Positions 3,301-63,616 of a stretch of DNA of 64,000 nucleotides are shown piece after piece. Positions within the stretch are counted from its first letter, which is position 1. Every line of letters begins with the position of its first letter. Source of the DNA: Hydractinia symbiolongicarpus (lineage: Eukaryota > Cnidaria > Hydrozoa > Anthoathecata > Hydractiniidae); contig NC_079876.1 of the NCBI RefSeq assembly GCF_029227915.1, forward strand, positions 6,446,001 to 6,510,000, written 5' to 3'. The notes under the pieces are model-generated. The model was not told the origin of the DNA and did no database searches. It was given only the letters and a program-made list of their open reading frames with translations. The translations under genes were made by a program, and so were the position numbers.

Positions 3301-3324
3301 GTAAGTTATTAAGTTGATTTAATA

Positions 3325-5414: not shown

Positions 5415-5510
5415 CTATCCTCGTCCCCAGGATTTGTTGCCTGGTAAGTCAAATCCGCTAGCGCTCAGGCTACATCTCAATAAGGCAAGAACCCCTGGGA
5501 ACGTGGTTGT
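5415..5510. mobile_element. Short palindromic MITE-like element
   Basis: Outer arms 'tcctcgtccccagg' and 'cccctgggaacgtggttg' are inverted versions of one another around a core of about 65 bases. Equivalent elements sit at about 55206-55300 in copy 2 and at about 25336-25430 in copy 3. The element therefore predates the duplication. Confidence 0.6.
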
Positions 5511-9296: not shown

Positions 9297-9431
9297 CGAG
9301 GTTGGTCCCTAGCGCTTTTTGTTTCTCTTTGATATAATACGGCGAGGTTCTAACACCTTACTGCAGCTGATATCTGGAAATACACCAACACTGAATGTCA
9401 TAGACGTAAAAAACCCTAGGGACGAGGTTGT
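9297..9431. mobile_element. Short inverted-repeat element (CCTCGTCCCC-family)
   Basis: The left end 'gaggttggtccctagcgc' and the right end 'ccctagggacgaggttgt' are related to each other, with about 100 bases between them. The same element is at about 59395-59530 in copy 2. It belongs to the family of palindromic elements seen throughout the window. Confidence 0.5.
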
Positions 9432-10390: not shown

Positions 10391-10470
10391 TTGGGGATTG
10401 GTAGTTCAGTCGGTAGGGCGTTCACTTCATATTCATATGGGTTCAATCCCACGTAACAGTTGTTGCTTAT
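10391..10470 (+). mobile_element. tRNA-derived SINE head, copy 1
   Basis: An A-box-like 'tggtagttcagtcggtag' and a B-box-like 'gggttcaatccc', spaced about 35-40 bases apart, mark an internal RNA polymerase III promoter. The tRNA-like part is too degenerate in its stems to call a functional tRNA. The SINE body probably runs to about 10560. Frames of 139 and 64 residues that overlap it on both strands (10306-10725) are conserved only because the DNA is. Confidence 0.6.
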
Positions 10471-17063: not shown

Positions 17064-17278
17064 AAATTCTTGTTTCCCCCATGATTGTTTGCTGAAAACT
17101 GATTAAATCCAATTACTTCTATCGTCACATTTTTTTATGATTGCGCTTACCTTAGGATAATTTGAGAGAATTAATCCCCACAAAAAGTCGAAAATAGGCT
17201 GATCCACAGAAAAATTTTATATCCCAGTAAGAAAGATTCAACAATTATAATTTGCTATCGTGGAATCTGCCTTGTGTA

Positions 17279-22469: not shown

Positions 22470-25400
22470 GATTTTTATTTCTTTGTTCTGAGTAGAACCA
22501 ACAAACCTCCAAGATTTAGGAGTTAATTGAAAATATAGTGTAGCGTCTGAGTCTGAGTTAATAGTTAGGCAGTTGATTTCAAATTTCGCACCAAATTTAA
22601 AAACACTATTTGACTCTACTTTTCGTTTTCCAACACGCACCTCTTGACCATACTTAAATTTTCCATAATACTTTGCAAGAAAGATGCTTTGTACTGGTTC
22701 ACTGCTCCTTACAAAACTGAGCGGCTTTGCAGGTTGTATGATGCCATTCTTTACTGTAAGTCACGTGGCGTAATAATTACAGAGAAACTCTTATAACGAC
22801 TATAGCCTCGTTTCTACGATATTTAATTATTGTGAAAATAATTTTATAAAGAAGAAATATTACATCAGAACTTCGCAAAGATAAAGCCTCCTTTTTAAGT
22901 TCGTTACAATATAGTAATGAATAAACTCTTTTTTAAGTTGCTCTTTCTTAAAAAAGCAAATCAACAATTCATTTTATGGTAAAATTTAAACTCCGTTGGT
23001 TCTTTGTTTTTCCTGTTCACCTTTTTTTGCGGTCTTGCAGCATGCCATATAGATAAAAAAAAAACCTAGGGACGAGAGTGCTAGATAAGGCAATATTGAT
23101 ATTTGGAAATTTTTTTCTTCCTTCTAAGAAAAACTAAATAAAGCCAAGATAAACACAGCTGGTCATGCTATTCTCCAGAAAAACAGATATATATAAAAAT
23201 CACTGGGGTCGAAAGTGCTAGACTAGGCAGTATTAATATTTGGTAAATTTGTTCCCCTTGTTTTATAAAAGGCTAAATAAGTCATGGAATAAACAGCTAG
23301 CCATCCTATTCTCCAGGGATCATTACCTGTTCGTTCTTTTCCCGCATAAGAAATAGATAAAAATCCCTGGGGACGAAAGTGCTAGACTAGGTTGGTTTAT
23401 AAAAACGCATTATGTTATCGTAGTAATTGTAGGAATAGCTATATTTACTTCAGAGATTTTTATTAAAAATGTCATGTGAAATTATTTTAACAGGCGAAAA
23501 ATTTTTGAGTTTCGAATTTAACTGAAACATTTCCGTGGTTCATACAAGTATAATATTTTCTCCTGAATTTATGCTATACATGATGACGTCAACATATTAA
23601 TATTAACTTGAATAGAAATAAATTTTGCAATTAATTATTTGATGTTTAATACATTAACTTTGTTTATAAAATGTTTTATAATTAAAATGTATTTAATCAT
23701 GTCATATTTCACGAATTTATAAATTCATTTTTTTCATTCATTCATTTAGTATTTTTATTTTTAGATATCCAGAGACTAACGATATCAAAATTCAACAGTT
23801 ATCATTTGGCTGCATCATATGATCGTCACTCAATATTAGATATGTTATGTCGACATGATGTAACAAACATCAACCCTATAAATGTTAACAACCGCACACC
23901 ATTACATTATGCTGAATTGTATGGTCACATCTCATGTGTGGACGTTTTGTTGCGTCATAAAAATATTGATGTGATGATCAAAGATAATCATGGAGGAACA
24001 GCTTATGATTGTGCTGGAGGGAGGTTGAAAAAACAAAACTGGGAAATAATAAGACGAAAATTAAAAGAATACGAAGTAAGTTATTTAAATAAATTGGAAA
24101 AGAATAAATTTGTATTTTATTTTAATTTGAAAATAACAAGGATTAAATAAATTTTTAAATAAATATTTAGGTATGGAATGTTTTTATTTTTTTAAATTTT
24201 TGTGCGTGGTATAAGAAATTAAAAGATAAATTAAGAGTAAAGTTTTATTTTTTAAAATTTCATAACAATAAGGAGAAATAATAGTGAAAAAACGGATGTA
24301 ATGATTCGCGATGAGAAAAAGATGATATTTTTAAACGGAGTAAACTAATTAACAAATTGAATGTAGTGAATAAAACTTGAGAATAAAGTGTGGAGGTTAA
24401 AAATAGTGAATACTTATAGTTTTAATAATTCTGACAGCTTTGATTTTTTATGTATGTAGAAATAATGAACAGAGACAGCGGAATAAAAAAGAGATAAAGT
24501 GTGATGTGTGTGAACATGCCAACCTGGGCGTTGGCGAAAGCTTGCTGAAAGATATATTTGGATATGTCGTAGATTTTGTCGTTCTTATCATTTTTTAAAA
24601 TAAAAAATTATAATGAAATTAAAAAAAATAAATCTAAAAGAACAGAAAAGAGGTCAAAATACAATTTCGTACCCAGACTGATTTATATTTTACATCTTCT
24701 GAAATTGATTGTTATCATTGAAAGCATGAATTGATTATTATAGATCTAAAAATAATTAAATAAAAAGTTATTTAAAAAATTTAAATACAGAATGTCACGA
24801 TGTTTCGTAATCCGAAATTATTTTGCATTTTTGCATAGAGATTGCACAAATTTCGCGTTATAATGTGAGTTATGTACAAATTGACCATTGTCTCTCATTT
24901 AGAACGCATGGTCACATGATGGCTGTTTTAATGTTGAAGTAGCTATACTTTCCAGTCTTATCCTGATTATACTGAAGAATAGTAACATAACAGTTATAAA
25001 GTAAAACTCGAAACAATAAAACAAATATAAAGACACATTTTTTTGTGTTTACACATCACAAAAGCCGCCATTTTGTGATCATTGATTTTTCGTATTATTC
25101 GCAGTTTGACTTCATCTCCCGTTTTCCAAAAAGTAGCACCATAAACATACTGCCCTAAAACTCCTGAAACAATTCTTGGCGAAAAAAATGAAGATGAAAT
25201 TATTGAAACTAAATTTATTTTTGTGAGTAATTATAACACACTTGTCTAAGAAAAAGGGAAGTAGTGCCAGAAAGCATTCTTGCTTCAAAGGCCTTCCAAC
25301 AGGTAAGAAACAGCCAGCTGCTTGGACCATTTTCGTCCCCTGGATATGTTGCCTGATATGTCAAAGCAGCTAGCGCCCGGTCTCCAAGTCAAGACGAAAG

Positions 25401-41829: not shown

Positions 41830-42610
41830 TCGCACTATGTCGAAATTTAAGTTTATGTATATTTTTAAAAGCCTTGGGCTGTTTTCCTTACTAATAGCGT
41901 TGCGTAAATAGACTGTGGTAACACATGGGTGTTAAAGCACAAGCTGGAGTGTTTCCATTCAGACTGAAGAAGTAAAGAGGGGTAGAGTGGAGCAAAATTC
42001 GAAAACGTACTTCAAATTCCAATCTTATCTTTTGTTTTTTCAAACCAATCAAAAATCAGTTATACAAAACTTTAACCCGCAAAATTATATCTTAAAAACA
42101 AATTAGGACCTGTGAAGTCTTAAATTGTAAAGAATTCGTTAAATAGTCTCCCTTTCTCTAATATTATTGTAAGAGAAAGTAAAAAAATGTGATCTCACAT
42201 TTCAGATCTCACAAACAAATAAAGCAATACGGTAAAATTAAAAATAGCCATTTTGCAAATTGTTTATCGGTGTATTACAATCTATATACTGAATAACTAA
42301 GTGAGTAGTATTAAAACTATGATTTTTTTCGTAGAAACAACGAACAAACGCACTAATAAACATTATATGTAGAAACAGAAGAAACGTTCTGTTAAGAGCA
42401 TTTTTGAAGAAAGAACGTCAACGCGGGTGTGTTGTTGTTCTTTTAATTAATTGATCTAATGTTGCTACAGGACACAAAATAACAAATGCAATGTATCTCT
42501 ATCGACTTTGTTGCGATAGGCGAATTTCCATGAATTTCTAGTAATTTTGTTGATAAACAGTATGAAAATTATAACTTCTATTGATATTTCTTGAATTGAA
42601 ATTGAAATTA
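41830..42610. other. Upstream region of the HEPN gene; no other gene seen
   Basis: An acceptor-like 'tatcttatag' lies 11 bases before 'atattatagtcATG', so a 5' non-coding exon further left is possible. No clear TATA box or other promoter element could be singled out. Confidence 0.35.
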
Positions 42611-42629
42611 TCTTATAGATATTATAGTC

Positions 42630-43522
42630 ATGGCAACGGCAGTACCTCCAACAGGATCTTCTCACCACGCATTGATCACTAACAATGAATATCAAATTAA
42701 ATTGGTCACGCTTCTCAATGAATGTTGTGACCACTTACGTGAAATTTTACATGATCCTGCCCGTGGCAACATGCCAAGAGATAAGAAACAATTATATCTG
42801 TCATTAAAACAATATAAGAAACATTTAAAGCATTTGAAAAAAGATCAGCTGGAAATCGTTTTTCCACAAGATAAGGAAACAGATTCGGAATTGTTTGACA
42901 TCACTATTTTATGTGACGTTCTAATTAATTGTTGTAACGGCATACAAGCACCAATTGGTGGATGGAGAACTAGAAAACCGCAACAAAATGATTTCAGTGT
43001 CGGTGCTGACATCATTCGAATCAGAAATGAGCGCAATAATGTTATGCATGGAAGAGCAATGAGTTCAGCACAATATAATCAGCTATGGAATGCCATAGAA
43101 GGTATATTAAGAAGACTCGGATACGACATAACAAAAATTAAAGATTTGAAATCTGGTTGCTTGAATGACTTAGACTTATTTAAGATCAAAATTATCAAAG
43201 CAGATACTGAAATTTTAAATTTCAATGTTAACAATAATAAAGACAGTATTCAGCAAAACGAAGATGGTATTAAACAAAATCAAGGTGACATTAAAGCAAG
43301 TAAAAACAGTATTCAGCAGAACGAAGATGGTATTAAACAAAATCAAGGTGACATTAAAGCAAATAAAGACAATATTCAGAAAAACAAAGGTGGTATTAAA
43401 GAGAATAAAGATAATTATAATCGATTAGCAGCCGAAGTGGAAATAGTAAAGCAAACTATCTCTTCATCATCATGTGATCAGAAGAGTTCTCAGTTGGAAG
43501 AAACTATAAGAGAACAACCCAG
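42630..43522 (+). CDS. Exon 1: DZIP3-like HEPN domain and heptad coiled coil
   Basis: The ATG at 42630 starts MATAVPPTGSS. Residues about 20-165 fit the HEPN domain of DZIP3/hRUL138 type found in many cnidarian innate-immunity-like proteins: helices 'LVTLLNECCDHLREIL', 'FDITILCDVLINCC', then 'RNERNNVMHG'. The last contains the HEPN motif R-x4-H (43032-43049), the site that in active members cleaves RNA. Residues about 195-275 are a coiled coil of strict heptads (IQQNEDG, IKQNQGD and so on) encoded by a 63-bp tandem repeat (43245-43373), suited to oligomerisation. The donor at 43523 leaves phase 2, which matches exon 2 exactly. Catalytic activity is inferred from the motif only. Confidence 0.85.
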
Positions 43523-43749
43523 GTGTGTAATTCTTTTTCTATATTGTTCCATCATTAAATTGATTCTGTCAACTTAACATAAAAGGCAAATATGGTTAAG
43601 TAAATAAATTTTCATTCAATTAAATTCCAATTTATCTTGGTGTAACTAAATCACTTTTCTGTAATGATTTCAATGCATAGGAGAGTCATAAGCGATAAGA
43701 CTACAGCAGATTGAAATCATGACAGCACTGATTGAAATAAATACTAAAA

Positions 43750-44061: not shown

Positions 44062-44330
44062 CTATATACTATTAAAAAATTTCCGGGGAGATTTTCTAAT
44101 ACAATTTGAAGATGGCTGCTCGCAGTGGTCTCTGAAAAGTGTACAAGTCATCATTACTGAAAATTTTGCGATACAATCAATAGAACTTCATGTCGACAAC
44201 GATTACATTGTGGAAGAAGAAGAAGGGAAACTAATCCTGATTATTTACAATCACATTGCCGAATTTATTAATGGGTTATCAGTTACGTTAGTTGACAGTG
44301 AAAGTAAAACTCAATTGATTCCAATTAAAG
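44062..44330 (+). CDS. Exon 2: beta-rich segment of the HEPN-NTPase gene
   Basis: An acceptor 'ttattttag' and a donor 'gtgagt' bound 269 bases. The split Ser codon with exon 1 (AG|C) keeps the frame open throughout. The roughly 90 residues (SYILLKNFRGDFLIQFEDG ... LSVTLVDSESKTQLIPIK) alternate hydrophobic and polar residues as in beta strands, with an acidic EEEEG turn. No family is recognised. It ends in phase 1, matching exon 3. Confidence 0.75.
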
Positions 44331-44815: not shown

Positions 44816-47381
44816 ATATTGCACTGGTCCAAGCACATATGTGTACAACCAGTTATTTTGATGTTAGAACCCACAACAGTGGAAGAATATCTGAACAGAT
44901 AAAATGCATTGTAGGAGCAGAAAGAGAAGAAACAAATATTGAATTTATATGTGGTGGTAGCCTGCAAACAATGGAACCTGAGGAGTACGAAGCATTTGAA
45001 AGAGATTACATCCAGCGTTATTTCACCGTCAATGGTAAATGCATGGAAGAACCACTCCAAATTCCACCCCCAATGCCAAACGTCACACATTCCTTATTCG
45101 CACAAAAGATAAAGGATGTTATAATCGAATTACAACATCATATGTGTACAATATTTACTCATTATAGCACGAAGGAACATATTCGATTTCTAAAACTGGA
45201 TAAAGAATTTTCTTTGAGTTTGGAAAGCACAATTACTGATAACAAAAGAATTCTACTTGTGTTGCCAAATTATATCGTCAACATTAGATATACAGAAACA
45301 ACCGACGCAGTAAGAATACAAGATGAAGTCAAAGCAGGCGAAGAAGACTTGAAGGAGCTATCTATCATCACTAAAAAATATTTTAAAAATGGTCACCTGA
45401 CAATGGTAAATGTTGTAGCTGCACCACATTTTGCAGATATCGAAAATTTCCACCTTTGTGTTGACTGCAACTTACTCTCCAAAACAACTTTGGCTGAGGA
45501 TAAAAATATGACGAAGTTCTTTTCAAATATTTTGCAAAGCTCACAAGTACAAAATAATGTTCAGGACAACAAGGAACGGTATATCAACATAGTTGGTAAA
45601 GTCATGTGTTTTATGGCTACAAGAAAAGCACTCTATTCTGTTCCTTCACTCAGTAACAACGTCCACGAACAAATAAGCTCGTTAATACTTTCTCCACAGC
45701 AACTCCGTCATTTATACAACAACTCTTTAAAAAAAATTATAATCGGTCCTCTAGGCAGTGGTAAGACAGTGCTAGCTTTAGCACATTTGGAAATAGCTTA
45801 CGAGCGCTCTGAGAATAGATCGATCATATACTATGTTATTTGGGACGGCAACACATTGCTGAAACGGGATATTGTCAATCTTACTAAAAGATTTAATTAC
45901 AAAGCCGCTGTCGAAGTTGTTGTAAAGGATACTGTCGAGTTAGCTAAGGATTTGAAAATGAATGAGGTGCCAACACCATACCAGCTATTAGAGTCATTGG
46001 TTAAGAAACATGTTGACCAAAACCTGCATCTAATAATTGATGAATTAAATGGAGAGTTCTTTAACAAGGAAGAATCATCTTTGCTTAAACACTATCTGGA
46101 AACTGAAGACAAATTAAATAACTCCTTCATCATTTTTTTCCCACAATCCATTGAGAAACATAGAACATTAATTTCACACCAAAGAGTCACAATACATGAC
46201 AAGTACAAGTATGAAGAAACAGGAATGAAAGTATTAAAACTTAACAGAGCAATGAGAACAACCCGGATAATCTTTCAGTTTTTAAAGGCTTTTGAAAATG
46301 AAGTAGAACAAGACAAGGTAACAATGAAGCTTCCCGATCAGGAATCAAAAGGTGGAATGTCCACCAAAACAAATATCGAAAAAATACTGAATTTCTTTTC
46401 CAAAATTTGGAAAAAACAACCACAACAGCGGCAAGAGCCACAACGGCGACAACAACAGCAGCAGCAGCAGCAGCAGCAACCACCACCACCACCACCACCA
46501 CCACAACAACAACAAGGACAAACTACCAGTAGCAATGTCACGCCGATAATAAAAGGAGAAGAAGAAGTATTTGAAACACCGGTTAATATTGATGTCATTG
46601 CAGCTTCCATACAAGATGGGGATCTTTCGGGTAATGTTAGAATTGACACTTCATTGAAATTTAATACAGCTCATTCAATCGGTCATAATATTGAAGGAAC
46701 AAAACCGTTATTGATACATTCGGCAAATACTCCAACAACAGACAAAGAGTTTATACCAATGTTAGCACTTGTTTTACAAGATGTATGTTTGCATCGTGCC
46801 ACTAAACGTTTGTTCATCTATAACACAATACCTCAAAAAGCTATTTTTCATAGATTACTAAGACTATTAAAGATTGATTTTTTTCACTACGACAAGTACA
46901 CTGACTGGAAAGTTTTAAATTGTGATGATATCATAGTTAAAAATCTCTTGCAGAGTCAAAATTATAACATGCTCACTACTATTGAGGGAAGTCGTGGAGT
47001 TGAAGCAGCCGAATGCATCTGTATAATTGAAAGCAATGATTGCAAGTTAAAACATTTGACGTTAGAAGCAATGTCCAGAGCGACACAAAAACTGGTCCTT
47101 GTTTCAGCGTCCAACGTCTACTAATCGGATACAGTAAAATCATCAACTGGTCATATCATCAGTAAACTGTTAACTGAACATCTGGTTGAATACAATGTAG
47201 AAGTCTCAAACGATGAAGATACAGAAATACCGTTCACAAAGTCTATGGAAAGTAACAATAAAATAGTTTTTAACATAAAACCACAATATTGGAAATTCAA
47301 AGAAATGATAAAAGATTTGGAACATATTGGTTTTCAGGTGACGGATGAACGCCTAAATGCGCATGAGATCGTTAGGAAAAA
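44816..47381 (+). CDS. Exon 3: superfamily-1 helicase-like P-loop NTPase, with an in-frame stop
   Basis: The exon enters in phase 1 (G|AT, Asp). The first 300 or so residues are an unassigned alpha/beta region. The ATPase core follows: a Q-motif-like 'LSPQQLRHLYNN', Walker A GPLGSGKT (45745-45768), Walker B 'LHLIIDE' (46024-46044), motif V 'TIEGSRGVE' (46978-47004) and motif VI 'EAMSRATQKLVLV' (from 47065). This order fits UvrD/DUF2075-like SF1 ATPases. Between the two lobes lies a low-complexity Gln/Pro tract (46421-46520). A TAA at 47122-47124 halts the frame, yet the same frame then stays open for 85 more codons to a good donor (gtaagt at 47382) that matches exon 4 in phase. So this is either a recent nonsense mutation, a sequencing error or readthrough. 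ATP use by such a domain could act as a switch; that is inference. Confidence 0.82.
46421..46520 (+). repeat. CAG/CAA and CCA tract coding poly-Gln then poly-Pro
   Basis: Within exon 3 a run of about ten Gln codons, eight Pro codons and four Gln codons links the two NTPase lobes. Long frames on the minus strand here (46241-46649) are shadows of the tract. Confidence 0.95.
47122..47124 (+). other. Premature in-frame TAA in the NTPase exon
   Basis: The frame reads ...SASNVY, stop, SDTVKSSTGH... and remains open to the donor at 47382, where the phase (2) matches the FN3 exon. A single-base change could create this stop from a sense codon. No splice signals remove it. Confidence 0.8.
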
Positions 47382-47790: not shown

Positions 47791-48057
47791 CCTTTATCCT
47801 CCTGGAGAAGTGAGCAATATAATTTGCTCATATTTGTCACGTAAATCATGCATATTGAGATGGCAAAAGGACGCTAATAAATACACCGTTAGAAGACAAG
47901 AAAGTAAAAATTCAACCTGGAATAACTTAGCAACTGACATTTCTTGCAATCAATACATCGTTGATGACATGGTATTTGGTGAAACGTGCAAGTTTTGTGT
48001 TGTTGCTAAAAATCATCTTGGTGTATCTGATGACAGCATTGTGTCTTATCGTCACGA
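47791..48057 (+). CDS. Exon 4: fibronectin type III domain
   Basis: The acceptor 'ataattttag' completes codon AA|C (Asn), and the donor 'gtaaga' follows at 48058 in phase 2. The roughly 89 residues fit one FN3 fold: 'YPPGEVSNI' in strand A, 'SCILRWQKD' with the core Trp, 'KYTVRRQ', 'STWNNLA', and 'GETCKFCVVAKNHLGVSDDS', the usual G-x-x-Y/C-x-F-x-V-x-A-x-N-x-x-G end. In NLR-like proteins such a domain usually spaces the ATPase from the sensor. No signal peptide is visible in exon 1, so the protein is predicted to be intracellular. Confidence 0.82.
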
Positions 48058-48155: not shown

Positions 48156-48187
48156 ACTTCCAAACGTCAAGGGTGTCCAATTTGAAG
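48156..48187 (+). CDS. Exon 5: 32-nt micro-exon
   Basis: A pyrimidine-rich acceptor 'aatttttttag' and a donor 'gtaagag' frame 32 bases. With the split Glu codon (GA|A) they read ELPNVKGVQFE plus one base. It exits in phase 1. The next good exon with a phase-1 entry is the ankyrin exon at 52650, giving ...QFE|DIVEIIKSND... Without that exon the gene would have no evident end before 49.8 kb. Confidence 0.65.
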
Positions 48188-49740: not shown

Positions 49741-52649
49741 AACAAAACTTTGCATGCTCAGATATATTTAGTTGGCGAACTCGTTTAGCAATACAAACAA
49801 TGAGGCTGAGGAAAAGAAAACAAAATAAGAACATCGGCAAGACTAAAACACCAATTTTCTCTCTACTCCCGAGAGAAATACATTTGGCAAAAAGAAATTT
49901 TAGCAGAATCAATCCTAAATGTTTTTATAAATCTTTGAAATGAATAACAAAATAAAAACTACTTTTACCGGTACATGTTATAATAAGGAACATTTCAGGC
50001 TGTAACGAATATAAGCGTATATATTGTAAATGTACCTTCAAGCTTCAAGTTTACTCCAATACAACACTAAAGCTTGCTGACTTACCAAATTTCACACCAA
50101 GTTTAAAAAAACTATTCCCTTTTGCCTTTTCTTTTTGAACCCGTAGCTAGCTCTCGGTCATACTTAAATTTCGCATAATAATTTGAAAGTTGATCACTTT
50201 GTGCAAAGTTGGACAATGTTGTATGATGCGAATCCTCCCTGTAAGTCGCTTGGCGCACTATTTACAGTAAAACTCTTATAACGACTACAGCCTCGTCTCT
50301 ATGTTATATGGACTTTGCAGAGGGAAAAGCCTGTTATTCAAGTTAGTAATGAAAAGCCTTGTTTTCAAGTTACCCACATTTGAAAAATATTGCTAATAGT
50401 AACCACCCGGTGAGAAAAAACAAACAATCATAAGCAATTAAATCATTTCGTCGTAAAATTTAGACTGATTTTTTCTTTCCTTGTTCTGACTAGAACGAAC
50501 AAACTCCCCAAATTTATAGTGTAGCGTGTGAGTCTAAGTTAGTGTTAGGCAGTTGATTTTGATATTTAAAGCGCATATTTTGTAAATATACATCATAGAT
50601 TCAATTTTACTCCAACACATACTCTAAAGCTGGCTTAACATACCGAATTTTGCACCAAGTTCGGAAACACTATTTACATTTACCTTTCGTTTTTGAACAC
50701 GTGGCTCTCGGCCATACTTAAATTTTGATGAATACTTTTCAAGCAAGATGCCTCGTACCACTTTACTGTTCCATGCAAAGTGGCTTTCCTGAAGTTGATC
50801 ACTTTGTACAAAGTTGGTCATTGTTATATGATGCGATTTCTCACTGTAACTCGCATGGCGTACTATTACCAGCAAAACTCTTATAACGACTACAGCCTCG
50901 TTTCTATGTGATTTGATTTTTGTAAAAATTACATTAGAAATTTGCAGAGGGAAAGCCTGTTTTTCAAGTTAGTTACAATATAGTATTGAATAACCTCGTT
51001 TTCAAGTTTTCCACATTTTTTAAAAATTATTGCTAATACTAACCATCCGGCGGGAAAAAAACAATCATAAGCAAATCAAAAGTCATTTCATCGTAAAATT
51101 TATACTCGGTTGGTTTTTTGTTTTAACAATATCTTTTTCCTAAAGCTGTTGAGTTTGAATTTTTGCAATATCTAAGGCTCGTGCTCTTTTTTGTTCTTAT
51201 AAAGAAACCCGCACAGTTTTTAATCGATCGCGTGTCAGAGAAACATCTTTGAAATGTTCGTGCAGACGAAATCGAATATATTGAGTACAGTCATTCTATT
51301 TTTATCACTATATCATACTCAACCAAAACGAATATGTTTCATTCAGCAAATAATGTTGATAGAAACTGGTCGTTTGAGGTGAGAGAAAATTTAATTTTGA
51401 TAAAAGCAGTAGCTAGTTTTTATTATACATTATTTTTATTCATGAGAAACCCGTTTACAATTATTGGAGTATTTACTAAGAGCTGTGTACCTAAGTCTCG
51501 TGTTCTTTAGAATTTGTTCTTATAAAAAACCGATCGCGTGTCAGAGACACAATCTTTAAAATATTCGTGCAGACGAAATCGAATATATTGAGTACAATTT
51601 GTTCTATTTTTATCACTATATCATACTCAACCAAAACGAATATGTTTCATTCAACAAATAATGTTGATAGGTCGTGTGAGGTGAGAGAAAATTTAATTTT
51701 GATAAAAGCAGTAGCTAGTTTTTATTATACATTATTTTTATTCATGAGAAGTCTGTTCACAATTAACGGAGTATTTACTAAGAGCTGTGTAATTTTAATT
51801 TTTTTTTAGAATTTAAACTGAAAAAACTAACAAACTCTTTTTGCGTGCTTGAGATTATGCTCTGTCTTGCAATTTTCTCCATACAATCTGAAAAAGCGTT
51901 ATTTGTTCAATATTAATATTTAGTGAAGTTTTTTCTTTGTTCGTAAGAAACTAAATAAAGTCATGGAATAAGCATACTAGCCAGCCTCGGTTTTAGGGAT
52001 TCATCGCCGTCTTCCCACATGCCATATAATTAAAAAATCCCTAGGGACAAGAGTGCTAGATTAGACAATACTAATATTTGGTAAAATTTTTCCTTTGTTT
52101 TAAAAAGCTAATTGAAGATTCATGAAATAAGCAGACTATCCAGCCTCGTTTCCAGATCTAGCCCAGATTTATCTTTTTGTTATTTTCCGGCATAAGAAAT
52201 AGATAAAAAATCCCTGGGAACGAAAGTGTTAGACTAGGTTGGTTTATAAAAACGCATTATGTTATCGTAATAATTGTAGGAATAGCTATATTTACTTCCG
52301 AGATTTTTATTAAAAATGTCATGTGAAATTATTTTAACAGGCGAAAAATTTTAGGGTCTCGACTTTAACTGAAACATTTCCGTGGTTCATACAAGTAAAA
52401 CAATTTTCTCCTGATGCAAATTATCCTATATATGATGACGTCAACATATTAATATTAACTTAAATAAAAATAAATTATTACTATATTTTTTGTTTCTGTG
52501 TTTTCACAATTACTTTTTTTTTATGTTTAATACATTATAAAATGTTTTACGATAAAAAAAAGTATTTAATGATGTCATAAGTTTTTCGTTATCATGTTTC
52601 ATTAATTTATAAATTTATAATTTTTATTCATTTATTATTTTATTTTTAG

Positions 52650-53128
52650 ATATCGTGGAAATTATTAAATCTAACGATATCGAGAAACTGAAAAAATTAC
52701 TATCCATTCATCCAAACATCGTTCACATGAGAGGTAAATATAAACACACACCATTGATGTGGACAGTATGGAACACCGACAATACATCAATGGTGGAAAT
52801 ACTTATCTCATATGGGAGTGATGTTTGGGCGGAAGATAGATTGAAACAAAACAGTTATCATGTCGCTGCATATCGTGATCGTCACACAATATTAGATATG
52901 TTATGTCGACATGATGTAACAAACATCAACCGTGGAGATGTTGACAACCGCACACCATTATATTTTGCTGCAGCGCGTGGTCACATCTCATGTGTTGATG
53001 TTTTGTTGCGTCATGAAAATATTGATGTGATGATCAAAGATAAATATGGATATACAGCTTATGATTATGCTGGAGTATGGAATGGACAAAACTGGGAAAT
53101 AATAAGACGAAAAATAAAAGAATACGAA
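52650..53128 (+). CDS. Ankyrin-repeat exon, copy 2
   Basis: The same acceptor and donor as copy 1 frame 479 bases, in phase 1 and out phase 0. The roughly 159 residues carry the same ankyrin framework (YTPLMW replaced by HTPLMW; 'RTPLYFAAARGH'; 'GYTAYDYAGVW'). Against copy 1 I count 27 replacement base changes, one lost codon and a single silent change (CTC/CTT). Changes include E-D-D-Y to K-Y-K-H, M-H to Y-R, V-F to A-R and E-D to K-Y, in the beta-hairpin and inner-helix positions that face ligands. The frame is intact, so the exon is likely functional and is the best candidate for the C-terminal sensor of the HEPN-NTPase gene upstream. Confidence 0.85.
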
Positions 53129-54077
53129 GTAAGTTATTAAGTTGATTTAATAAATTAGAAAGAAGAATAAAATTGTATTTTATTTTAATTTGAAAATAAT
53201 AAGGATTAAATAAATGTTTAAATAAATATATAGGTATGGAATGTTTTTATTTTTTTAAATTTTGGTGCGAAGAAATTAAAAGTTAATAAATTCGAAAGAA
53301 TAATGAATTTTTTATTTCTTTTAATTTGATAATAATGATGATAAATGAAAGTTAAAAAACGAATGAAATGATTCGCAATAATAAAATGATGGATGATTTT
53401 TATTTGAGTGGAGTAAACTAATTAACAAATTGAAGGATATAATGAATCCAAATTTAAGAAACTTAAGAATAAAATGTTGAATGTCAAAAATATTTTTTTA
53501 TAACAAATTGGATAACATGAATAAAATACTTAAGAATAAAATGTTGAGGTTGTCAAGTAGATTATTGTGACAGTCCAAAGTAGAAAGTATTTTTAATAAA
53601 AAATAGTGAATTATTATAGCTGTTAATAATTCTGACAGCATTAATTTTTATGTATGTAAAAATAATGAGAAGAGATAAGTATATAATATAACGAAATTAA
53701 AAATAATAAATTTTATAAGAGAAAAAGAAGAAGTAAAAATACAATTTCGTACCCAGACTGTTTTTTATTTTACATCTTCTGAAATTGATTGTTATTATTG
53801 TTAGCATGAATTAAATATTATAGATGTTAAAATATTTAAAATAAAAGATATTTAAAACATTCAAAAATAAGAATGCCACGATGTTAAACTTTTTTCTCGT
53901 AATCCGAAATTATTTTGTTTTTTGCATAGCCATTGTACAAATTTCGCGTTATAAAAGGATTTTATGGACAAATTGACAGATTGTCTCTCATTTAGAAGAC
54001 ATGGCTATGACGATGGCTGTTCTAATACTTAAGTAGCTATACTTTAAAAGAACACATCTTTTTATCTTTCAGGACAG

Positions 54078-54133
54078 GACGAAGTGAATATTTCAAATGA
54101 TTTTGTTTTGAAAAACAACAATCAGTTTGTGAG
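54078..54133 (+). CDS. Putative small 3' exon, copy 2
   Basis: Tandem acceptors 'ttcag|gacag' and donor 'gag|gtgag' match copy 1. From the second acceptor it reads DEVNIS...NQFV in frame with the ankyrin exon, then splices to 54222, where 'A TGA' stops. The first acceptor gives an immediate TGA at 54085-54087 instead. Confidence 0.4.
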
Positions 54134-55849
54134 GTGAGACGATACTTTATACAATTGGATATATTTCTCTTTTGTTTTTTCTATTTTTAACTTTCTTTCA
54201 TGAAATTTATTTATTTTTTAGATGAGGAACGAGTCCAGTTTTTAGTTTTATTTTATATTGTAATAAATTTATTTGTAGTAAAACGTACTGAAACATTTTT
54301 CTGTTCGATTTTTATCAAGCCTTGTTTCGTTTATATTTCATTCAGGAAGCGACACATGTCAAAGGTCACGTGTTTTTTTAAACTGTCTCAAACTTGCGGC
54401 ATGGTGCAATGTAGAGTAAATCTTATTTATTACAAACGTCAACTAATATACTTTCTCAACCTCGTCCCCAAGTCTTGTTAGGCCTTTATATTTTGAAGGC
54501 CCTGGCTGGTCACGTGACGACAGAATACCCACGTATAGTGGGTATTTTGAAAATAATTATTTGTCTCGCTCTTCCAAAATATACACAAGCAGTCGAGAAA
54601 AAAATGAAAGAACTAACACAATTATTTAGAATGGTTAAAATAATATTAATAAGAAAAAAATTATATATATTTTTATATAAATATTTTTATATAAATATTT
54701 TTATATTGTAAAAAATATTTTTATTTATTTATAATAATATTATTTAATGTTTAAAAGAACTGTTAATAAATATTGTATAATATATTAAACATTCACACTT
54801 GCGTACCTGTTTTTAATTTCCAGTACTTCTCCCCTTTTTTTTTTAAACTTCTTCCCATTTTAAAAAAGTTCATCCTATTCTGATTATACTGAAGAACAGC
54901 AATTTAACATTTATTAAGTAAAATTCGAAATAATAAAGCAAATATAAAGACACATTTTCTTGTGTTTACATGATACTCGTCAAAAGCCGCCATTATATGG
55001 TAATTTTTTTTGTGGGATGAAATCCAGATTGATGTCATCTCCTAGATGGTAAAAGAAACCCCATGAACATGTTGCCGCAAAACTCATAAAACATTCTTGT
55101 GAATAATTATAAAATTAATGTCTAAGTAAAATAGAAGTAGTGCCAGAAAGCATTCTTTCGTTTCAGTCTCCCAACAGGTCAGAATCAACGAGCTGCGTGA
55201 ACCATCCTCGTCCCCATCCTTGTTGCCTGATAAGTCAAATCCGCTAGCGCTCGGGCTACATCTCAATAAGGCAAGAACCCCTGGGAACGTGGTTGTGCGT
55301 GGACCCATGAACAGAGTAGATACTTTTTCAAAACGAGTATAATATAAGATGAACACTTTTCACCGGATGTTTTGATCAACGCTGTCAAAAAGCCTGTGGT
55401 AAATTTTAATCATAGTAAATGGAGTCCTGCGCAAATCTCAGCATAGATCCTGCGCAAATTTCAATACGCACTCGTCTTTTACGTTGCACCTAGGGCTTCC
55501 CTTATTATAATACAGGAATTTACGGACTTCTATTTTGATCTGCGCGTTATTTTTGCTTGCCGGAACCTTTGACCGTTTGCGGGAATTCTATCCTCGATCA
55601 CAGGACATGTCGTGATGATCAACGCTTTCTGAATCAAAAACGCTTGCTGAGTTAAACTGTGTAATCAACAAAAACTCTGTCCATGTGGGCATTGCTATAC
55701 ATTTTCTACTCTTTTGCGGACTTTTCCGTGAGGGAAGTAGCAAAATAAGTTATTGCTCATCTCCAGTACCTGTTACAATCTCATCTTCAAACAAAACAAA
55801 ACAACCGTATGATATATATAAAACCGCTTATCCATGTGGGTATGGTGAC

Positions 55850-56629
55850 ATGATCCATCGATTTGGGAGATCCGTTCTAGAACTACGTATGATTTCAAAC
55901 TTCGTGTAAATTTGATTTATCAGCATTTTAAGTACAAATTGCGCGACCTCACTCAAAATTGGTTAGCTTTAATAAAGCTCAGAGAGTATGCTGATGCTGG
56001 TCATGAGTAAAATTCTGCTGGGGATTATTTCTTGATGGAACTATCCGTCCAATATGTCGAACCAAAAGATGTCAACAAGCTATATACAATGGCAATAAAT
56101 AGATCTATTCTTTTAAATTTTAAAGCGTTGTTGGACTAAACGGTTAAATTGCGAGTTTGTATGGACCTACGGAAGGTAGGAGACGCGATTGTGCTCTTTT
56201 GAATACTTCCGGATTACTTCAAAGTTTACAACATTCACATTCTCCTCATGAACAGTTATTGCGCATTTATGGTTATCTTGCATACCTCATTCGTCCACAA
56301 ATAATATGGCCCTTTAAGGATGCGAATATACTACTAATCAAAGACCGTTAAATGAGGCCATGAGCAAAGTGAGAATATCTGTGGAATGTATATTTGGTGA
56401 CATTGTGAATTACTCGCATTTTTAGAAAAAGTTGAAGATAAGCTTGAGTGCTGCTGGAAAAATGAATTCACTTTGTGCACTTCTTCATGATGAATTCAGA
56501 ATTCTTAAAGTTCTCTGGAGTTTATCGGTTCATGTTAAGAAGATTTTATACCATATTTGTTTAAAATCTTTGCAACGTCAGTGCAAAAATAACTTTTATA
56601 TTCCATGCAAAGAACACGAGTTCGTGTAA
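55850..56629 (+). pseudogene. Decayed PIF/Harbinger transposase, copy 2
   Basis: This shows the same ordered motifs as 6063-6842 (HRFGRSVLEL, DGTIRPICR, GRRRDCALL, VECIFG, LSAAGKMNSLCALLH). The second catalytic Asp context has changed from RRHD to RRRD. Stops are at equivalent places, so the gene was already dead before duplication. Confidence 0.7.
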
Positions 56630-56840
56630 AGTATTCACAAACTTTCTTTTGCGTAAATTTTTTGAAATATCGCGATACAATGTAAGAACTACGTTTATAT
56701 TTTACACACAGAACACGAGTTCGTGTAAAGTATTCCCGAACTTTCTTCTTTGTAAATTATTTGAAATATCACGATACAATGTAAGAACTACGTTTATATT
56801 TCACACAAAGAACACGAGTTCGTGTAAAGTATTCACAAAC
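56613..56840 (+). repeat. 99-bp tandem repeat expanded in copy 2
   Basis: 'aacacgagttcgtgtaaagt' recurs at 56613, 56712 and 56811, each preceded by 'ttgaaatatc.cgatacaat' in the two additional units. Copy 1 has a single unit at about 6826. The 'cacga.ttcgtg' core is a near-palindrome. Confidence 0.9.
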
Positions 56841-57231
56841 TTTCTTTTTTCTTTAACTTTTGTGATGATTCGTCAATTGATTCTTGATCTTTTGACTTTT
56901 TCGCTTCGCTCTTTTTCTCTACCAAAAATAAGTAAAATACATTACAAAGTCAATCTTTAACACAGACAGTCTGTTTAGAATTTTGAGGTCGACAGAACAG
57001 GCCCTGTTTAAAATATCTCTGCCCTAGAACTGTAATTTCTAAAAGACAAGGAAGTAGCAAAAACATATCATAACTTATGTTTATTAACATCAAAAATAAA
57101 TATGTATTTCTAAATAACTATTTAGTGACAAGTATACAAATGTCGTCCACAGAACATTGTTTTTTTATGTTTAAGGAGTATAGATTTATAGCATGTGTAA
57201 CAATATTTGTATAGTTTGAAGAATAGAATTT

Positions 57232-57996
57232 TTATGATGATATGTTATGGCTAATTTTATGTTGGTGAAGTTGATGTACTATTTTTTGTGAGATAGCTCT
57301 GTCAAAACCATACTCTTCATATGCTTGAAATTCTTTTAAAATAATTTCTGAGAAAACATTGTCCTAGTTACTACATTTTCCAATGTCTTTCTTAAAAGTT
57401 TAGTTATAAATTCTTCGTCAACTAGTTCTTCCTTTTGTTCATCTTCCTTTTTAGCCTCAAACTCATTATTATTGTGCTTCTTAAGGAAGTTTTAATCCAC
57501 CTTTACTTTTGCACACTTTGTCACATACATACAGGAAAAGTTGCCAAGTTCGATCCTAAATGATAATAATGTGGTCATATCTGTGACATACAAAAGGCTT
57601 TCCCTCCCTCCCCCCAGCAGCCTAGCTTGTTAGTCTTACTTTTTCTATCCAAACAGCACAAACAAAACAAAAAATTACTTACGTCTTCACATAGATCGTT
57701 TGCGAATTCATTTAAATATTCATCTTCGTTTAAAACTTCAATAATATATTCAAAGTGTCATCCTCAAAAATATCTAAGGATACCAAAATACTATTATTTC
57801 CTCCTGCATTAGACGTTAGGGAGAACTGCAAATTAGATTATTTCTCATAAATAAGGTAGTAGCTAAATTAGGAGATTTTTAATAGCTTAACTTGGAGAGA
57901 ATAGTCTAAGGAGATTGAAAATTTAATCGACGATATCTTCGCAATCTTTGTCGATCGCGCCATCATTTTTCCTGTACTACTTGCTGACTTAGTCAT
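57232..57996 (-). pseudogene. Decayed C2H2 zinc-finger gene, copy 2
   Basis: The same layout as 7247-7899. The zinc-finger His in 'LKLH' is changed to Pro (CTT CCT), and a 113-bp insertion at 57835-57948 splits the first exon. Both copies share the frameshift after the finger, so inactivation predates the duplication. Confidence 0.5.
57835..57948. mobile_element. 113-bp block present only in copy 2
   Basis: Copy 1 runs 'gcaaatttgtcg' without a break here. In copy 2 the block begins 'agatta' and ends 'caatct', giving a tiny inverted repeat (agatt/aatct) between TT bases. It is either a small MITE insertion or a deletion from copy 1. Confidence 0.45.
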
Positions 57997-58700
57997 CTTT
58001 GCTTAGTTCGAATATCATAGAATTTGCATGTCGGAAACGTGCGCACCAACCAAAATCGTTTTCAATCGACTAGAACAAGGTCCTGGGCAAGATTGTCCAA
58101 ATACCTTATTTTGTCTATGATAGCGTAATTAGGACATTATAGCCTAACCATCCGCCATCTTTTTTTAAATCAAAATAGTGTATTTAGGCTGTTTTTTACT
58201 AGAAATTAAAAAAAGGTTGCGAAGCATTACGCAATATGTTTTAGATATAACTGATTAATTTTTGTCATTTTGCAACATTTTAACGCCGTGTTACTTGTAA
58301 ATTGTGTTTAATTAAGGTTGCTACTGTGAAGGTTTGACCGTGAAAAGTCTACCTTGTACCCCCATCGGAGAGCAACTCCTTCCGACCGCAAGAATATACA
58401 TATTGTTCCAATGATCTCATTTTGGACAACTGTGTTCTTGTGAGATGCAGCTTTACCATGTTTGTATATATACGTCAATATTGGAAGGATTGGAAATACG
58501 TAAATTTCGAATAGCTGCAACCTGGGGGAAATAAGATCGAAGTTTTACCATTATATAAATGCCATTTGTATATACCTTTTTTGTATGATGTACCAAATTC
58601 ATTATTTAGAGTCTATGTTTTGTCAAGCATGTGTCCAATGTAACAGGTGTGTCCATGTAAAATATGTTATCTATTTAAGTGCTATTAACGATTTCTGTAG

Positions 58701-58913
58701 CTACCATTCTTCGGAGAGAACACGCGGATGAGCTGCAATTCTCTTTGAAGTTTCAGAACGTATCACCTCTCTTTTCAACTTAACGTTAACGGAGTTAACT
58801 GGGATAGGTAAAGAGGATTCTGGATGGTCAAATAAAATCTTAACATTTCCGTTGCTTTCCTTCCACTGCATCACTACTTCCAAGCAAGCTCTCGTCTGCT
58901 TCAAACTTCCCAT
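58701..58913 (-). CDS. Unidentified 70-residue ORF, copy 2
   Basis: The counterpart of 8603-8815, open over the same length, with G-to-R and G-to-E changes. No family recognised. Confidence 0.25.
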   Translation of the reverse strand: MGSLKQTRACLEVVMQWKESNGNVKILFDHPESSLPIPVNSVNVKLKREVIRSETSKRIAAHPRVLSEEW

Positions 58914-60480
58914 GCTCCAAGTTTAATAGAGCAGCAGGAAAAACAATTCCATTAATTATTTTACTTGATCATTTACAAAGGAAGCTTAGAGGTGATGGCC
59001 AAAACAATATTCTTCTTATTCTTAACTGGAAAGAGATCAGCAAGTAAATGAAAAATAATTAATTTTCCAAATACATAGGCAAAACTGCCTTTAACAAAGC
59101 GATAAAATATATGATTTGCGTTGTTTTCGGGCAATATTTAAAAACATATACTTGCTTTAAAACAACAATATGTACTTTAGAGCCACCTCCACAACTACTT
59201 AGTCTTCACAGTGCAGTCTTCACTAAAAAGTTCCATTTTTAACGATCACGATAAGAAGTAAAAAATTCTGGATAAGCGAGACACGAGTGCATTAATTAAA
59301 AATCTGCGAAAATCAAAGATTTTTGACCAGCCTCCACCAGGGCCATGTTCGTTTCGCCGTCCGATATGCAAAAAGAGACAACATGTCCTGGGATCGAGGT
59401 TGGTCCCTAGCGCTTTTTGTTTCTCTTTGATATAATACGGCGAGGTTCTAACACCTTACTGCAGCTGATATCTGGAAATACACCAACACTGAATGTCATA
59501 GACGTAAAAAACCCTACGGACGAGGTTGTAAAATAAACTCACCGCGGAACAACAACAACTTTTTGGCAAAAATACAATACAACTATATATATGCGGAATA
59601 TTTCTTCTCAGAAAGTACGAGAAGTTTAGATCGCGCGAAACTAAAGAAAAACGATTACTGAGAAGTTTCGTAAAACCTCTTTCCACAGAATTATAAAATT
59701 AAATATTGATAATAATCACAATATTGTCAGTGTTGGCCGACGTAGATCCAACATTGATGAAGCTTTTAGCGCCAAAAATCCATGCAAAGTTATACTTTTA
59801 TAAAGTTAAAACCCTTATTTTAAAAGAAATGCAATATATCGAGTTGTGCAATCCGTAGTGTGCGAAAATGTCACGAATTAAGGGGATGCTCGTCGTAAGG
59901 TACACTCCTTCAACTGGAAAATAATACTCGGAACGCTAATAATAATAGAGACTTTCGCGTTAACGATAGCAGCTTGTGGGTTTTTCTTCACGTAAAAATA
60001 ACGGCATTAGTTATGAAAACCGATTTCTTGAAGCCACGGAATCTGCTGCGATGAAACTCACGGGAAACAATAAAGAAAAACAAACAATCTACAGGAACGA
60101 AAACAATTTATTAACTTTATCAAGATTTATAAGACAGCTTCAAATTTTTGACAGAAAAACTATAACAACGCGGTGTGAGATTTCGCTTTCTTCTTTTTAT
60201 CTCACGTATTGAAAGATAACATCTCTCACTCTCATTGTACGCAATCTAAAAAGAAACAGAAAACATTTTTATATAGTATATTATATTATATATATAGCAA
60301 AGTCTCTAAATACATTAAAATCCAGTGCCTTTGAGGACAATATTTAGAGTTAAATTCTAAACTACAAATATATATCATTTTCTGGGACAGAGTGCTCAAA
60401 AAGTATGTTTACTAGATACAATATGTTTGATATAATTAATAAAGTCACGCAACTCTGTGTACTTTGAGGGTTCTCCTCTC

Positions 60481-60560
60481 TTGGGGATTGGTAGTTCAGT
60501 CGGTAGGGCGTTCACTTCATATTCATATGGGCTCAATCCCACGTAACAGTTGTTGCTTAT
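60481..60560 (+). mobile_element. tRNA-derived SINE head, copy 2
   Basis: The same A-box-like sequence as 10391-10470. The B box has decayed from 'gggttcaatccc' to 'gggctcaatccc'. Confidence 0.6.
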
Positions 60561-61248
60561 TGAACAGAAAGTTAAAACGTTTCTGTAGCTCAAATGGAAG
60601 CTTTTTAACACTCTATAACCGTCTATGTTGTCCCTCCTGGAAAAAATTGACAGGGTAAATTTATTGGAATTAATGACTAACCACATAAAATATAGATCAC
60701 TACTTTTTGTGGCCAAGACAACAGAATTGAAAGCACTGTTTTTCATTTGGAAAGTACAAATTGTATTTAAAAATTTGCCCAAGCTTGCCATCATACTTAT
60801 GGATTTTTTAGCCATTTGACACGCATACTAATCTACCATACTGAACACAAAAGTTACGAAAAACAAGAAATTTGATTAAGGTCTATTATGTGGTTTCTTA
60901 AAGGGTCATTCAAGAGTAGTTTCATAACTTAACATTACCACATTATTGTAAGCTCATGAAACATAATGGGTTGTAAAGAAAATGATGAAGCCCTAAATAT
61001 TTTTTATCCTTTTTAAATATTTTTATATGTCCAAACTTAATCTCCCAGAAACAATAATTACATTAACGGTCGCCACCATTGAAGTCCACTTGCTCATTTG
61101 TGACTTCACACGTCGTACATAGCTCACTTCTTGAAAAAATTATTGCAAGGTTCGAGTGTTGAAGGATTTAACAACATGCGAGAGTAGGTAAACAAAGTAG
61201 AACGTCCAGGTAAAGGCACCGTTTGATAAAATAGTTCAGATTTAGAAC

Positions 61249-61985
61249 ATATATCAGTAAAAAGATGCTAGTAGCAACAACAGTACAAAAGTTTTTAACC
61301 ACAAATGAGCAAGTACCTTTAAGAATGAAGAGGTATATTTTCCCCTGTTAGTTTTGGATTGGTGACTTTTTATTTCCTCGATGCAACAATAAAAGAAGCA
61401 ACTTGAGCTTTAGGGAATATTTAAAGATCGTATAATAAAAGAAAGAGTTTTGTTAATACTTTATGGATTGAACTTTCTTCTTCTGACTGTAGCTAGAGCT
61501 AGCTAGCTAATGATTCCATTGAAGGATGACAACAAAAAAAATTTTTCATGGTGGCCACAGGCACCAAAAAGTAATTTAGTTACCTAGCTACATCAAACCA
61601 AGGAAAAAACGTAAAAATAACTTTCACATCATCCATACCTTTGCAACTCACTTTTCTTCTGCTGTATGAAAAGGATACCACAAACATGCCAATTCATGCT
61701 GATAATTTGGTACTTTAAAATCTTCTTTTTATTGAAGCCATAAATATAACACGTTTTTGCGCATTATAAACGGAAGATGCTTTATCCAAAATGCGATTCC
61801 GTGGTTTTAAATTTAAATTATTATTAGAATTACGTCATTCAAATAAGACGTATTGTTGCGGAATTCGCGGAAAAAGCCTGGAGGCACACGCACGTGTTTT
61901 TGAGATTTTGTATACCGTTGAAGCTTTCAACTAAAATAAACCTTTCGAACTGTAATCATCGTTCAATAATCGAAATAAATAAAAC
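61249..61985. other. Single-copy spacer right of copy 2
   Basis: The duplication ends here and the sequence no longer matches 11185 onward. It is AT-rich with an AGCT run near 61494. It could hold the promoter of the possible gene starting at about 62.0 kb. Confidence 0.4.
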
Positions 61986-62241: not shown

Positions 62242-62485
62242 GTGAGTTTTAAGATATAACAAGAAGCCCTGGGGGCTCTAAGAATTTCCGCGCGCTACCA
62301 AAATATTTGATGAAAACCTGCTAATTCGTTGTGTTATTGTGCCAAACATTCGAAGGGGTTTGGTGCATGAACCTCTGAAGATAAAGCCCATCAGTGACAT
62401 TATATCTTACAACAAACGCAAACAAAACGAAACGTGTCATATTAAACTCACATTTTAAAAGAAATTGCTAACAAAAAATACAGGG

Positions 62486-63616
62486 GTGACAAAAAATCAA
62501 ACTTTTGTACCATTATCATTTTCAGCATACTTTATTTGTTAACAGTGCCAGATTTAGCCGAAAATGAAGTGGTTTTAATTTTTGGACCAATTTTGGTCTA
62601 AAATGGCATTTAGGTGACAAAAATCAAAATTTTGATGTCACCATTATGTTCAGCATACTTTTTTTGTTAACTTTGCCAATTTTTGTTGAAAATGAAGTAG
62701 TTTTAATTTTTGGACCAATTTTGGCCTAAAATGGCCTTTAGGTGACAAAAATCAAAATTTTGATGTCACCATTATGTCAGCATACTTTTTTTGTTAACTT
62801 TGCCAATTTTTGTTAAAAATGAAGTAGTTTTAATTTTTGGACCAATTTTGGCCTAAAATGACATTTAAGGTGGCAAAAAACCGAAATTTTGATGTCACCA
62901 TCATGTTCACCATACTTTTTTTGTTAATTGTGCCAAAATTTGTCAAAAATTAAGTAGTTTTAATTTTTGGACCAATTTTGGCCTAAAATGACATTTAGGT
63001 GACAAAAATCAAAATTTTGATGTCACCATTATGTTCAGCGTACTTTTTTTGTTAACTTTGCCAATTTTTGTTGAAAATGAAGTAGTTTTAATTTTTGGAC
63101 CAATTTTGGCCTAAAATGGCATTTAGGTGACAAAAATCAAAATTTCGATGTCACCATTATGTCAGCATACTTTTTTTGTTAACCTTGCCAATTTTTGTTA
63201 AAAATGAAGTAGTTTTAATTTTTGGACCAATTTTGGCCTAAAATGACATTTAAGGTGGCAAAAAACCGAAATTTTGATGTCACCATCATGTTCACCATAC
63301 TTTTTTTGTTAATTGTGCCAAAATTTGTCAAAAATTAAGTAGTTTTAATTTTTGGACCAATTTTGGCCTAAAATGACATTTAGGTAACAAGAAATCAAAA
63401 TTTTGATGTCACCATCATGTTCAGCATACTTTATTTGTTAACTGTTCCAAATTTTGTTGAAAATAAAGTAGTTCTAATTTTTGGACTAATTTTGGCCTAA
63501 AATGACATTTAGGTGACAAAACTCAAAATTAATATGTCACCATTATGTTCAGCATACTTTTTTTGTTAACTGTGCCAAATTTTGTCGAAAACAAATATCA
63601 ATTTTGGCCTGAAGCG
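62486..63616 (+). repeat. 128-bp satellite, about 9 units, with 385-bp higher-order repeat
   Basis: The unit start 'ggtgacaaaaatcaaaatt' recurs at 62486, 62614, 62742, 62870, 62999, 63127, 63255, 63384 and 63513, a period of 128-129 bases. Three monomers A-B-C at 62614-62998 are repeated almost exactly at 62999-63383: A has 'atgttcagc', B has 'atgtcagc' and C has 'gtggcaaaaaaccg'. Each monomer includes the 14-bp palindrome atcaaaattttgat. No frame of note. Confidence 0.95.

Follow-up and report, generated by a model that had tools for sequence, protein, structure and literature searches.

A family of Hydractinia symbiolongicarpus ankyrin exons with a shared framework and contact residues that differ between copies

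Fungal NLRs with ANK, TPR or WD repeats have been described in Podospora (Dyrka et al., 2014, PMC4986451), and the accessible parts of that account report positive selection at concave-face sites of the ankyrin repeats, possible concerted evolution and a proposed role in non-self recognition. These repeats, with their selected concave-face sites, are the nearest precedent for the exon family that we describe here from Hydractinia symbiolongicarpus. According to the same parts of that source, the repeats of a given fungal protein closely resemble one another and vary in number, whereas the repeats within our exons A and B, by reading, clearly differ from one another; the Hydractinia family is also different in being one exon spread over many genes, in belonging to an animal, in having a HEPN domain and in giving no NACHT or NB-ARC match. 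In animals, fusions of DZIP3-type HEPN domains to ankyrin, NACHT and LRR are on record (PMC3710099, in its accessible text), and accounts of animal DZIP3/hRUL138-like HEPN proteins share with our family the HEPN_DZIP3 domain with an Rx4H motif, family expansion and ankyrin fusions (PMC3710099; pearl oyster, PMC9646362; cnidarians, PMC8260672); the available portions of these three papers stress NACHT and other partners, and do not describe an ankyrin exon that is hypervariable and exchanged. Brown algal ROCO genes have shuffled repeat-coding exons and positively selected concave-face residues, but they encode one LRR per 72-bp exon and use alternative splicing, whereas in Hydractinia one exon holds the whole ankyrin domain (excerpts of PMC11378527). 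The sea urchin Sp185/333 genes are likewise clustered immune genes with a near absence of pseudogenes and proposed gene conversion, but they are built of mosaic elements, unlike the fixed framework with variable contact residues found here (excerpts of PMC5103432). In the open-licence PMC literature we found no animal family with a whole ankyrin domain as one exchangeable, library-like exon, and the word “ankyrin” is absent from the main text of PMC10411563, on H. symbiolongicarpus.

Ankyrin exon copies in the window and in the genome

The window, i.e., the whole stretch of 64,000 nucleotides that was analysed (C2:6446001-6510000), contains two full ankyrin exons, A and B, with a spacing of about 49.8 kb, and a truncated copy, C:

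1-11187, plus strand: duplicated segment around exon A, about 11 kb, with its left end outside the window
49825-61249, plus strand: duplicated segment around exon B, about 97% identical to 1-11187
2819-3300, plus strand: ankyrin exon A, the other half of the duplication
52650-53128, plus strand: ankyrin exon B, a capping region and about four repeats, phase 1 in and phase 0 out (Pfam Ank_2, 1.5e-17)
23765-24075, plus strand: truncated ankyrin exon C, first repeats missing in frame, frame open

Two near-identical copies of C lie elsewhere on C2 (L031 and L032); the three truncated copies were considered as an unselected control and proved too young (1 difference in 288). Two noncoding blocks beside exon A (2408-2515 and 3301-3440) are 2-5% from copy C, against 14-25% for their neighbours, and may be promoter, UTR or exchange tracts. 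The window also has an array of tandem repeats of about 128 bp each (62485-63595) and, on the minus strand at 15994-17102, open frames that by eye resemble a retroelement reverse transcriptase, with no Pfam match above cut-off. Rfam and tRNA scans detected nothing, and exact-pattern and relative searches of viral and prokaryote collections gave no matches.

A genome search with the exon B protein returned at least 152 matching places (150 of 377 candidates were scored). The best 44 of these, A and B included, have E values of 4.6e-64 or better and 69-100% identity, are nearly full-length and have no internal stops; 39 are on C2 at 5.8-17.2 Mb, two on C6, one on C10 and two on C11. On C2, the positions 6419207, 6448821, 6469785 and 6498652 suggest by their spacing tandem units of ~50 kb that carry one truncated ankyrin exon and one full one. 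We read 24 of the best 44 copies (A, B and L009-L030), the remaining 20 lying outside the sample; the family figures below rest on 22 of them, leaving out L018, which is identical to L017, and L030, whose reading frame is unclear although it is among the best 44 listed without internal stops. Beyond the 24, two truncated and twelve more distant copies were also compared. An assembly artefact, with alleles or chimaeras of one locus set side by side, would suit the pairs that are 100% identical over 6.9 kb (L017/L018) or 99.9% identical over 7.5 kb (L036/L037); however, the 22 copies used have differing flanks and are spread over C2, C6, C10 and C11, and the contact pattern would remain even with A and B as alleles, and we give this explanation almost no weight.

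Diversity at the contact positions

We took the repeat register from alignments to designed ankyrin repeat proteins (DARPins) in the PDB; the aligned DARPin repeats vary at positions 2, 3, 5, 13, 14 and 33, which are the positions randomised in such libraries, and position 10 of the inner helix is kept fixed in them. The predicted structure of exon B has a mean pLDDT of 89.9 (three-row alignment), and its best PDB matches are DARPins. These matches show nearly the same variable surface positions on a fixed framework; DARPins are artificial, and the natural family is hypervariable also at position 10 of the inner helix, in three of the four repeats. We defined a contact set of 23 positions, 22 of which are variable in the family.

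The sequence-only reading had counted 27 replacement base changes and one silent one between exons A and B, besides the deletion of a codon, and the codon alignment (2821-3300 against 52652-53128, exon limits being set by conserved splice sites) reproduced this tally exactly; the 27 base changes fall in 22 replaced codons, the silent change is in codon 51, and the missing codon is 144. Its two further statements also held: that most changes sit at partner-facing, DARPin-randomised positions (15 of the 22 replaced residues are among 23 such residues and 7 among the other 136; p=1.4e-10), and that the introns differ by a few percent (42 of 2815 sites upstream and 33 of 935 downstream, or 1.5-3.5%). 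No outer-helix residue is changed (0 of 38, p=0.0015). The NG86 estimates for the exon are dN 0.074 and dS 0.0105; replacement-site divergence exceeds that of both introns pooled (p=1.1e-7) and that of the downstream intron alone (p=0.003), and one silent change or fewer among 28 has a neutral probability of 0.014. Changes are found at 24 of 318 first and second codon positions and at 4 of 159 third positions, the latter value being close to that of the introns. The net charge at the variable sites is -6 in A and +5 in B, which is weakly significant (p=0.04).

With the introns as neutral rate, a check that had been proposed together with the tally, the contact omega of the A/B pair is 24 (maximum likelihood, p=1.3e-17). 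The exon is not the sole divergent stretch in the duplication, since a noncoding patch (5012-5490) has 35 A/B differences in a 477-bp window; with this patch as neutral rate the contact omega is 7.4 (maximum likelihood, p=1.1e-8). Codons outside the contact set have an omega of 0.5 by the patch reference and 1.5 by the intron reference. An older local coalescence as the sole cause of the A/B divergence was rejected, since it predicts about 8 silent changes where 1 is seen (binomial p=0.0023). When the patch is set against its counterpart in 49825-61249, it is as divergent as the exon; sequence is found to be missing in copy A, and B is partly similar to the third copy.

Among the 22 copies, the framework is almost identical and the partner-facing residues differ in every distinct copy examined: all 22 contact strings are distinct (the identical copy L018 having been excluded beforehand), with net charges from -5 to +5. 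Collecting the paralogues and mapping their variable sites, here for 22 of the best 44 copies, had also been suggested from the sequence, and the resulting entropy peaks lie at ankyrin positions 3, 5, 13, 14, 10 and 2. Entropy has a mean of 1.95 bits over the contact sites and of 0.30 bits over the remaining 137 (p=9e-13); split by ankyrin position, the values are 2.5 bits at position 3, 2.3 at 13 and at 5, 2.2 at 14, 2.0 at 10, 1.3 at 2 and 0.8 at 33, with every other repeat position below 0.7 bits and the outer helices near zero. Of the 24 sites with at least 1.5 bits, 17 are contact sites (p=8e-13); a few sites at the capping ends, e.g., 6 and 144, are also variable, and 78 of 160 sites, including one contact site, are invariant. 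Contact codons have a pN of 0.418 and a pS of 0.093, and the other codons 0.056 and 0.036, so that the contact-codon pN/pS is 4.5 (bootstrap 3.8-5.4). Contact pN divided by the pS of the other codons gives about 11 (bootstrap 9.5-15.5), which is no true omega if exons are exchanged, the within-codon value of 4.5 being the one to read in that case. Two patterns had been named in advance as contrary evidence, namely a dN/dS near or below 1 on a larger set and variable sites scattered over the buried framework; the exon-wide pN/pS over the 22 copies is 2.5, milder than in the A/B pair, and the variable sites lie away from the buried framework.

On C15, a second subfamily shows the same tendency: between L039 and L040, 20 of 25 contact-type sites are different, against 25 of the 132 others, homology between the two being detected across only 837 bp at the exon, and the other five C15 pairs go in the same direction (from 14/25 vs 35/132 to 20/26 vs 31/132). 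Not every subfamily diversifies in this way, since L033 and L034, a duplication of similar age, show no contact change: their exons differ by 2 bases and by no amino acid, and their surroundings match at 98.45% for 5.2 kb and at 95% along another 1.6 kb.

The contact codons might be the target of a dedicated mutagenic process, either deaminase-like or templated by a retroelement, with selection merely filtering the products; diversity-generating retroelements, for instance, have a template copy, adenine-directed changes and a linked reverse transcriptase. Such a process would fit third codon positions that hardly vary, or do not vary at all, in several codons of the highest variability, and a contact divergence far above that of the flanks. 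However, third-position variability at contact codons has a ratio of 0.44, just slightly under the 0.50-0.60 of selection-only simulations, so such a process is not needed, and the transition/transversion pattern of the A/B exon matches that of the introns; on these tests of substitution spectrum and third positions we consider targeted mutagenesis very unlikely.

Upstream exons and MFHS units

We read the following chain of exons by eye as the gene of copy B:

42630-43522, plus strand: probable exon 1, DZIP3/hRUL138-like HEPN (PF18738, 4.4e-21)
44062-44330, plus strand: probable exon 2, no family match
44816-47381, plus strand: probable exon 3, P-loop NTPase, no Pfam match above cut-off
47791-48057, plus strand: probable exon 4, fibronectin type III-like (fn3 E 0.0021, below the Pfam cut-off)
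48156-48187, plus strand: probable exon 5, 32 bases, phase 2 in and phase 1 out, fitting the ankyrin exon
54073-54087, plus strand: uncertain candidate for the last exon, with four codons followed by a stop

All five junctions of the six exons (HEPN, unnamed, NTPase, FN3-like, 32 bases and ankyrin) are in phase with GT/AG ends; exons 2, 3, 4 and 6 are open solely in the required frame (exon 3 save for one TAA) and exon 5 in two frames, and a generic matrix gives the acceptors of exons 2-4 low scores. The candidate last exon is suggested by a GTAAGT donor that follows the ankyrin exon in 23 of the 24 close copies. The NTPase of exon 3, which by its motifs we take to be superfamily-1-like, hit ResIII and AAA weakly in Pfam and matched neither NACHT nor NB-ARC, and the pLDDT of its model (34.5) is too low to judge a diverged fold. 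The in-frame TAA of exon 3 is at 47122-47124 (residue 1157), so that the window's own gene copy may be null; in L033 and L042 the matches on either side of it share one frame. The HEPN match of exon 1 scores 75.6 bits against a curated cut-off of 27, and its Rx4H motif, RNNVMH, is read in the ORF 42606-43577; Rx4-6H is given as the active-site motif of DZIP3/hRUL138-like HEPN proteins in the accessible text of PMC9646362.

NTPase or FN3 matches on the same strand were found within 4 kb upstream of the ankyrin exon at 11 of the 36 loci compared, and both, in order, at six loci (L033, L034, L035, L041, L042, and L043); for most close copies the front end would lie past the 4 kb covered. Eleven close loci share the B intron sequence just downstream of exon 5, and their front ends are thus probably similar. 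Within the window, a further set of front-end exons was not found. L041:99-4477, a compact relative, has matches to HEPN, exon 2, FN3 and ankyrin but hardly any to the NTPase. The ankyrin exon is probably the C-terminal domain of a HEPN-NTPase-FN3-ANK protein, as judged from reading frames and splice phases. Given the six-exon gene model, such a protein would have one NLR-type trait, a repeat sensor at the C terminus on which diversifying selection acts; its mode of action may be NLR-like, but we do not class it as an NLR.

Upstream of both A and B are pairs of MFHS units:

1398-1659, plus strand: MFHS unit 1 upstream of A
1698-1960, plus strand: MFHS unit 2 upstream of A
51222-51489, plus strand: MFHS unit 1 upstream of B, TATA-like, with a short MFHS open frame
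51528-51791, plus strand: MFHS unit 2 upstream of B

Such units precede 21 of the 24 close copies; an exact-string search found 38 of them in 22 loci (A, B, L009-L014, L016-L021, L023-L029, and L044), often as tandem pairs, 0.8-1.5 kb upstream of the ankyrin exons (2.2 kb in L044). They are conserved where the intervening DNA is non-homologous, and several have in-frame stops. We tried the MFHS unit as a first coding exon and rejected it: the best donor leaves phase 0 where the ankyrin exon needs phase 1, no linking exon appeared in the scan, an alternative phase-1 donor is present in some units and not in all, and the in-frame stops speak against it as well. We prefer the upstream exon chain as the front end.

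Probable exon exchange and the likely role of the family

Seven of the 13 copies compared with B by BLAST (L010, L012, L015, L016, L022, L024, and L027) have homology confined to the exon and its close flanks, about 60-130 bp upstream and 55-125 bp downstream of the exon; the homology spans about -130 to +600 around the exon start, plus the upstream units, and five of the seven also match B strongly at the MFHS units. At non-contact codons, pS is 3.3% between these seven copies and the other fifteen, 4.3% within the fifteen and 2.1% within the seven. Each of the three comparisons gives a contact pN of 0.42. The frameworks are alike even behind deeply diverged front ends: the NTPase is 39% identical to that of B in L027 and 41% in L010, and FN3 is 31% identical in L012 and L016, while base differences from B in the 137 non-contact codons are 4.4% (L027), 4.2% (L010), 3.4% (L012) and 5.6% (L016), with contact identities of 7/23, 11/23, 7/22 and 13/23, respectively. 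The framework is thus young and shared, and the front ends are old. In the more distant L033, L034, L042 and L043, both parts have diverged from B to a similar extent (NTPase 54-72% identical, ankyrin 51-60%), and in L035 and L038 it is again the front end that is farther from B (28-31% identical, against 59-62% for the exon).

Contact residues differ between copies regardless of how far the flanks have diverged. Over 231 copy pairs, which are not independent, so that pair counts are not sample sizes, the correlation between the two is -0.005 (rho), and 0.011 with L023 and L026 left out, both of which have kilobases of homology to B; 68% of contact residues differ in the 67 pairs with flanks less than 5% apart and 67% in the 134 pairs more than 20% apart. 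Within the exon, compatibility between biallelic sites is higher at short distances (34 sites, one-sided P=0.021), a signal of recombination. Constraint on framework codons could imitate part of the homogenisation; pN/pS outside the contact set does not point to strong constraint: it is 0.91 in 88 helix and cap codons, and in a trimmed framework of 124 codons (the non-contact set minus 13 further variable sites, a trimming that lowers divergence; the full version was also computed) it is 0.7 and 1.0 in the two larger copy sets and 1.7 among the seven. Values near or somewhat below 1 suggest recent copying over amino-acid constraint alone.

Positive selection on point mutations alone, with each copy diversifying in place after duplication and no exon exchange, would account for the contact excess already present in the single A/B pair, and the third-position ratio is near, if slightly below, that of the corresponding simulations. 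However, the 15 pairs with the closest flanks (1.4-2.2% different) already differ at 48-83% of contact residues, near-identical frameworks are found between genes whose front-end domains are 31-41% identical, sites within the exon show the incompatibility signal, and tract boundaries and framework variants common to different gene lineages are partly seen; we regard selection alone as improbable. The sequence-only reading had offered diversifying selection or conversion from variant cassettes, and for the 22 of the best 44 paralogues it is selection and exon exchange together that fit best.

The explanation we favour, to which we assign a probability of roughly 0.7, is a receptor-like family with a C-terminal ankyrin exon, a conversion-homogenised framework, selected contact residues and a HEPN effector. 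Gene conversion or a similar exchange would keep copying the ankyrin exon between receptor genes and so homogenise the framework, while selection would keep the contact residues different; the genome would thus hold a germline repertoire of binders. The ankyrin face would bind a foreign or non-self protein and signal through the NTPase to the HEPN domain as an RNase-type effector, as in NLR-like defence proteins. A role in defence or self/non-self recognition is what we infer for the family from its sequences. The known allorecognition genes of Hydractinia, Alr, are of another type, encoding Ig-like extracellular domains and a transmembrane segment; no Ig domain was found in Pfam scans of the pieces scanned. 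The same anatomy with a non-pathogen partner, in allorecognition, gamete recognition or mobile-element silencing, is a possibility to which we give the smaller share of belief; Hydractinia is an allorecognition model, and the HEPN superfamily has been linked to intragenomic conflict, in the accessible parts of the literature (PMC3710099 for the latter).

Beyond the receptor-like family with exchanged exons, a bolder version is conceivable, and we hold it only tentatively: a germline library of interchangeable ankyrin cassettes, each the exon with about 60-130 bases of intron on each side, actively copied as a unit between deeply diverged HEPN-NTPase genes on several chromosomes, as a natural counterpart of a DARPin library, with MFHS units that may aid the exchange or the separate expression of cassettes. 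Ankyrin surfaces diversified by selection are already known in fungi; an animal version, in a single, probably exchangeable exon, would be new to the open-licence PMC literature covered here. If the reading is true, evolution arrived at nearly the positions chosen by protein engineers; and since Hydractinia serves in the laboratory as a model for self/non-self recognition, where both genetics and genome editing are available, the ligands, the allelic diversity and the mechanism of exchange would be directly testable.
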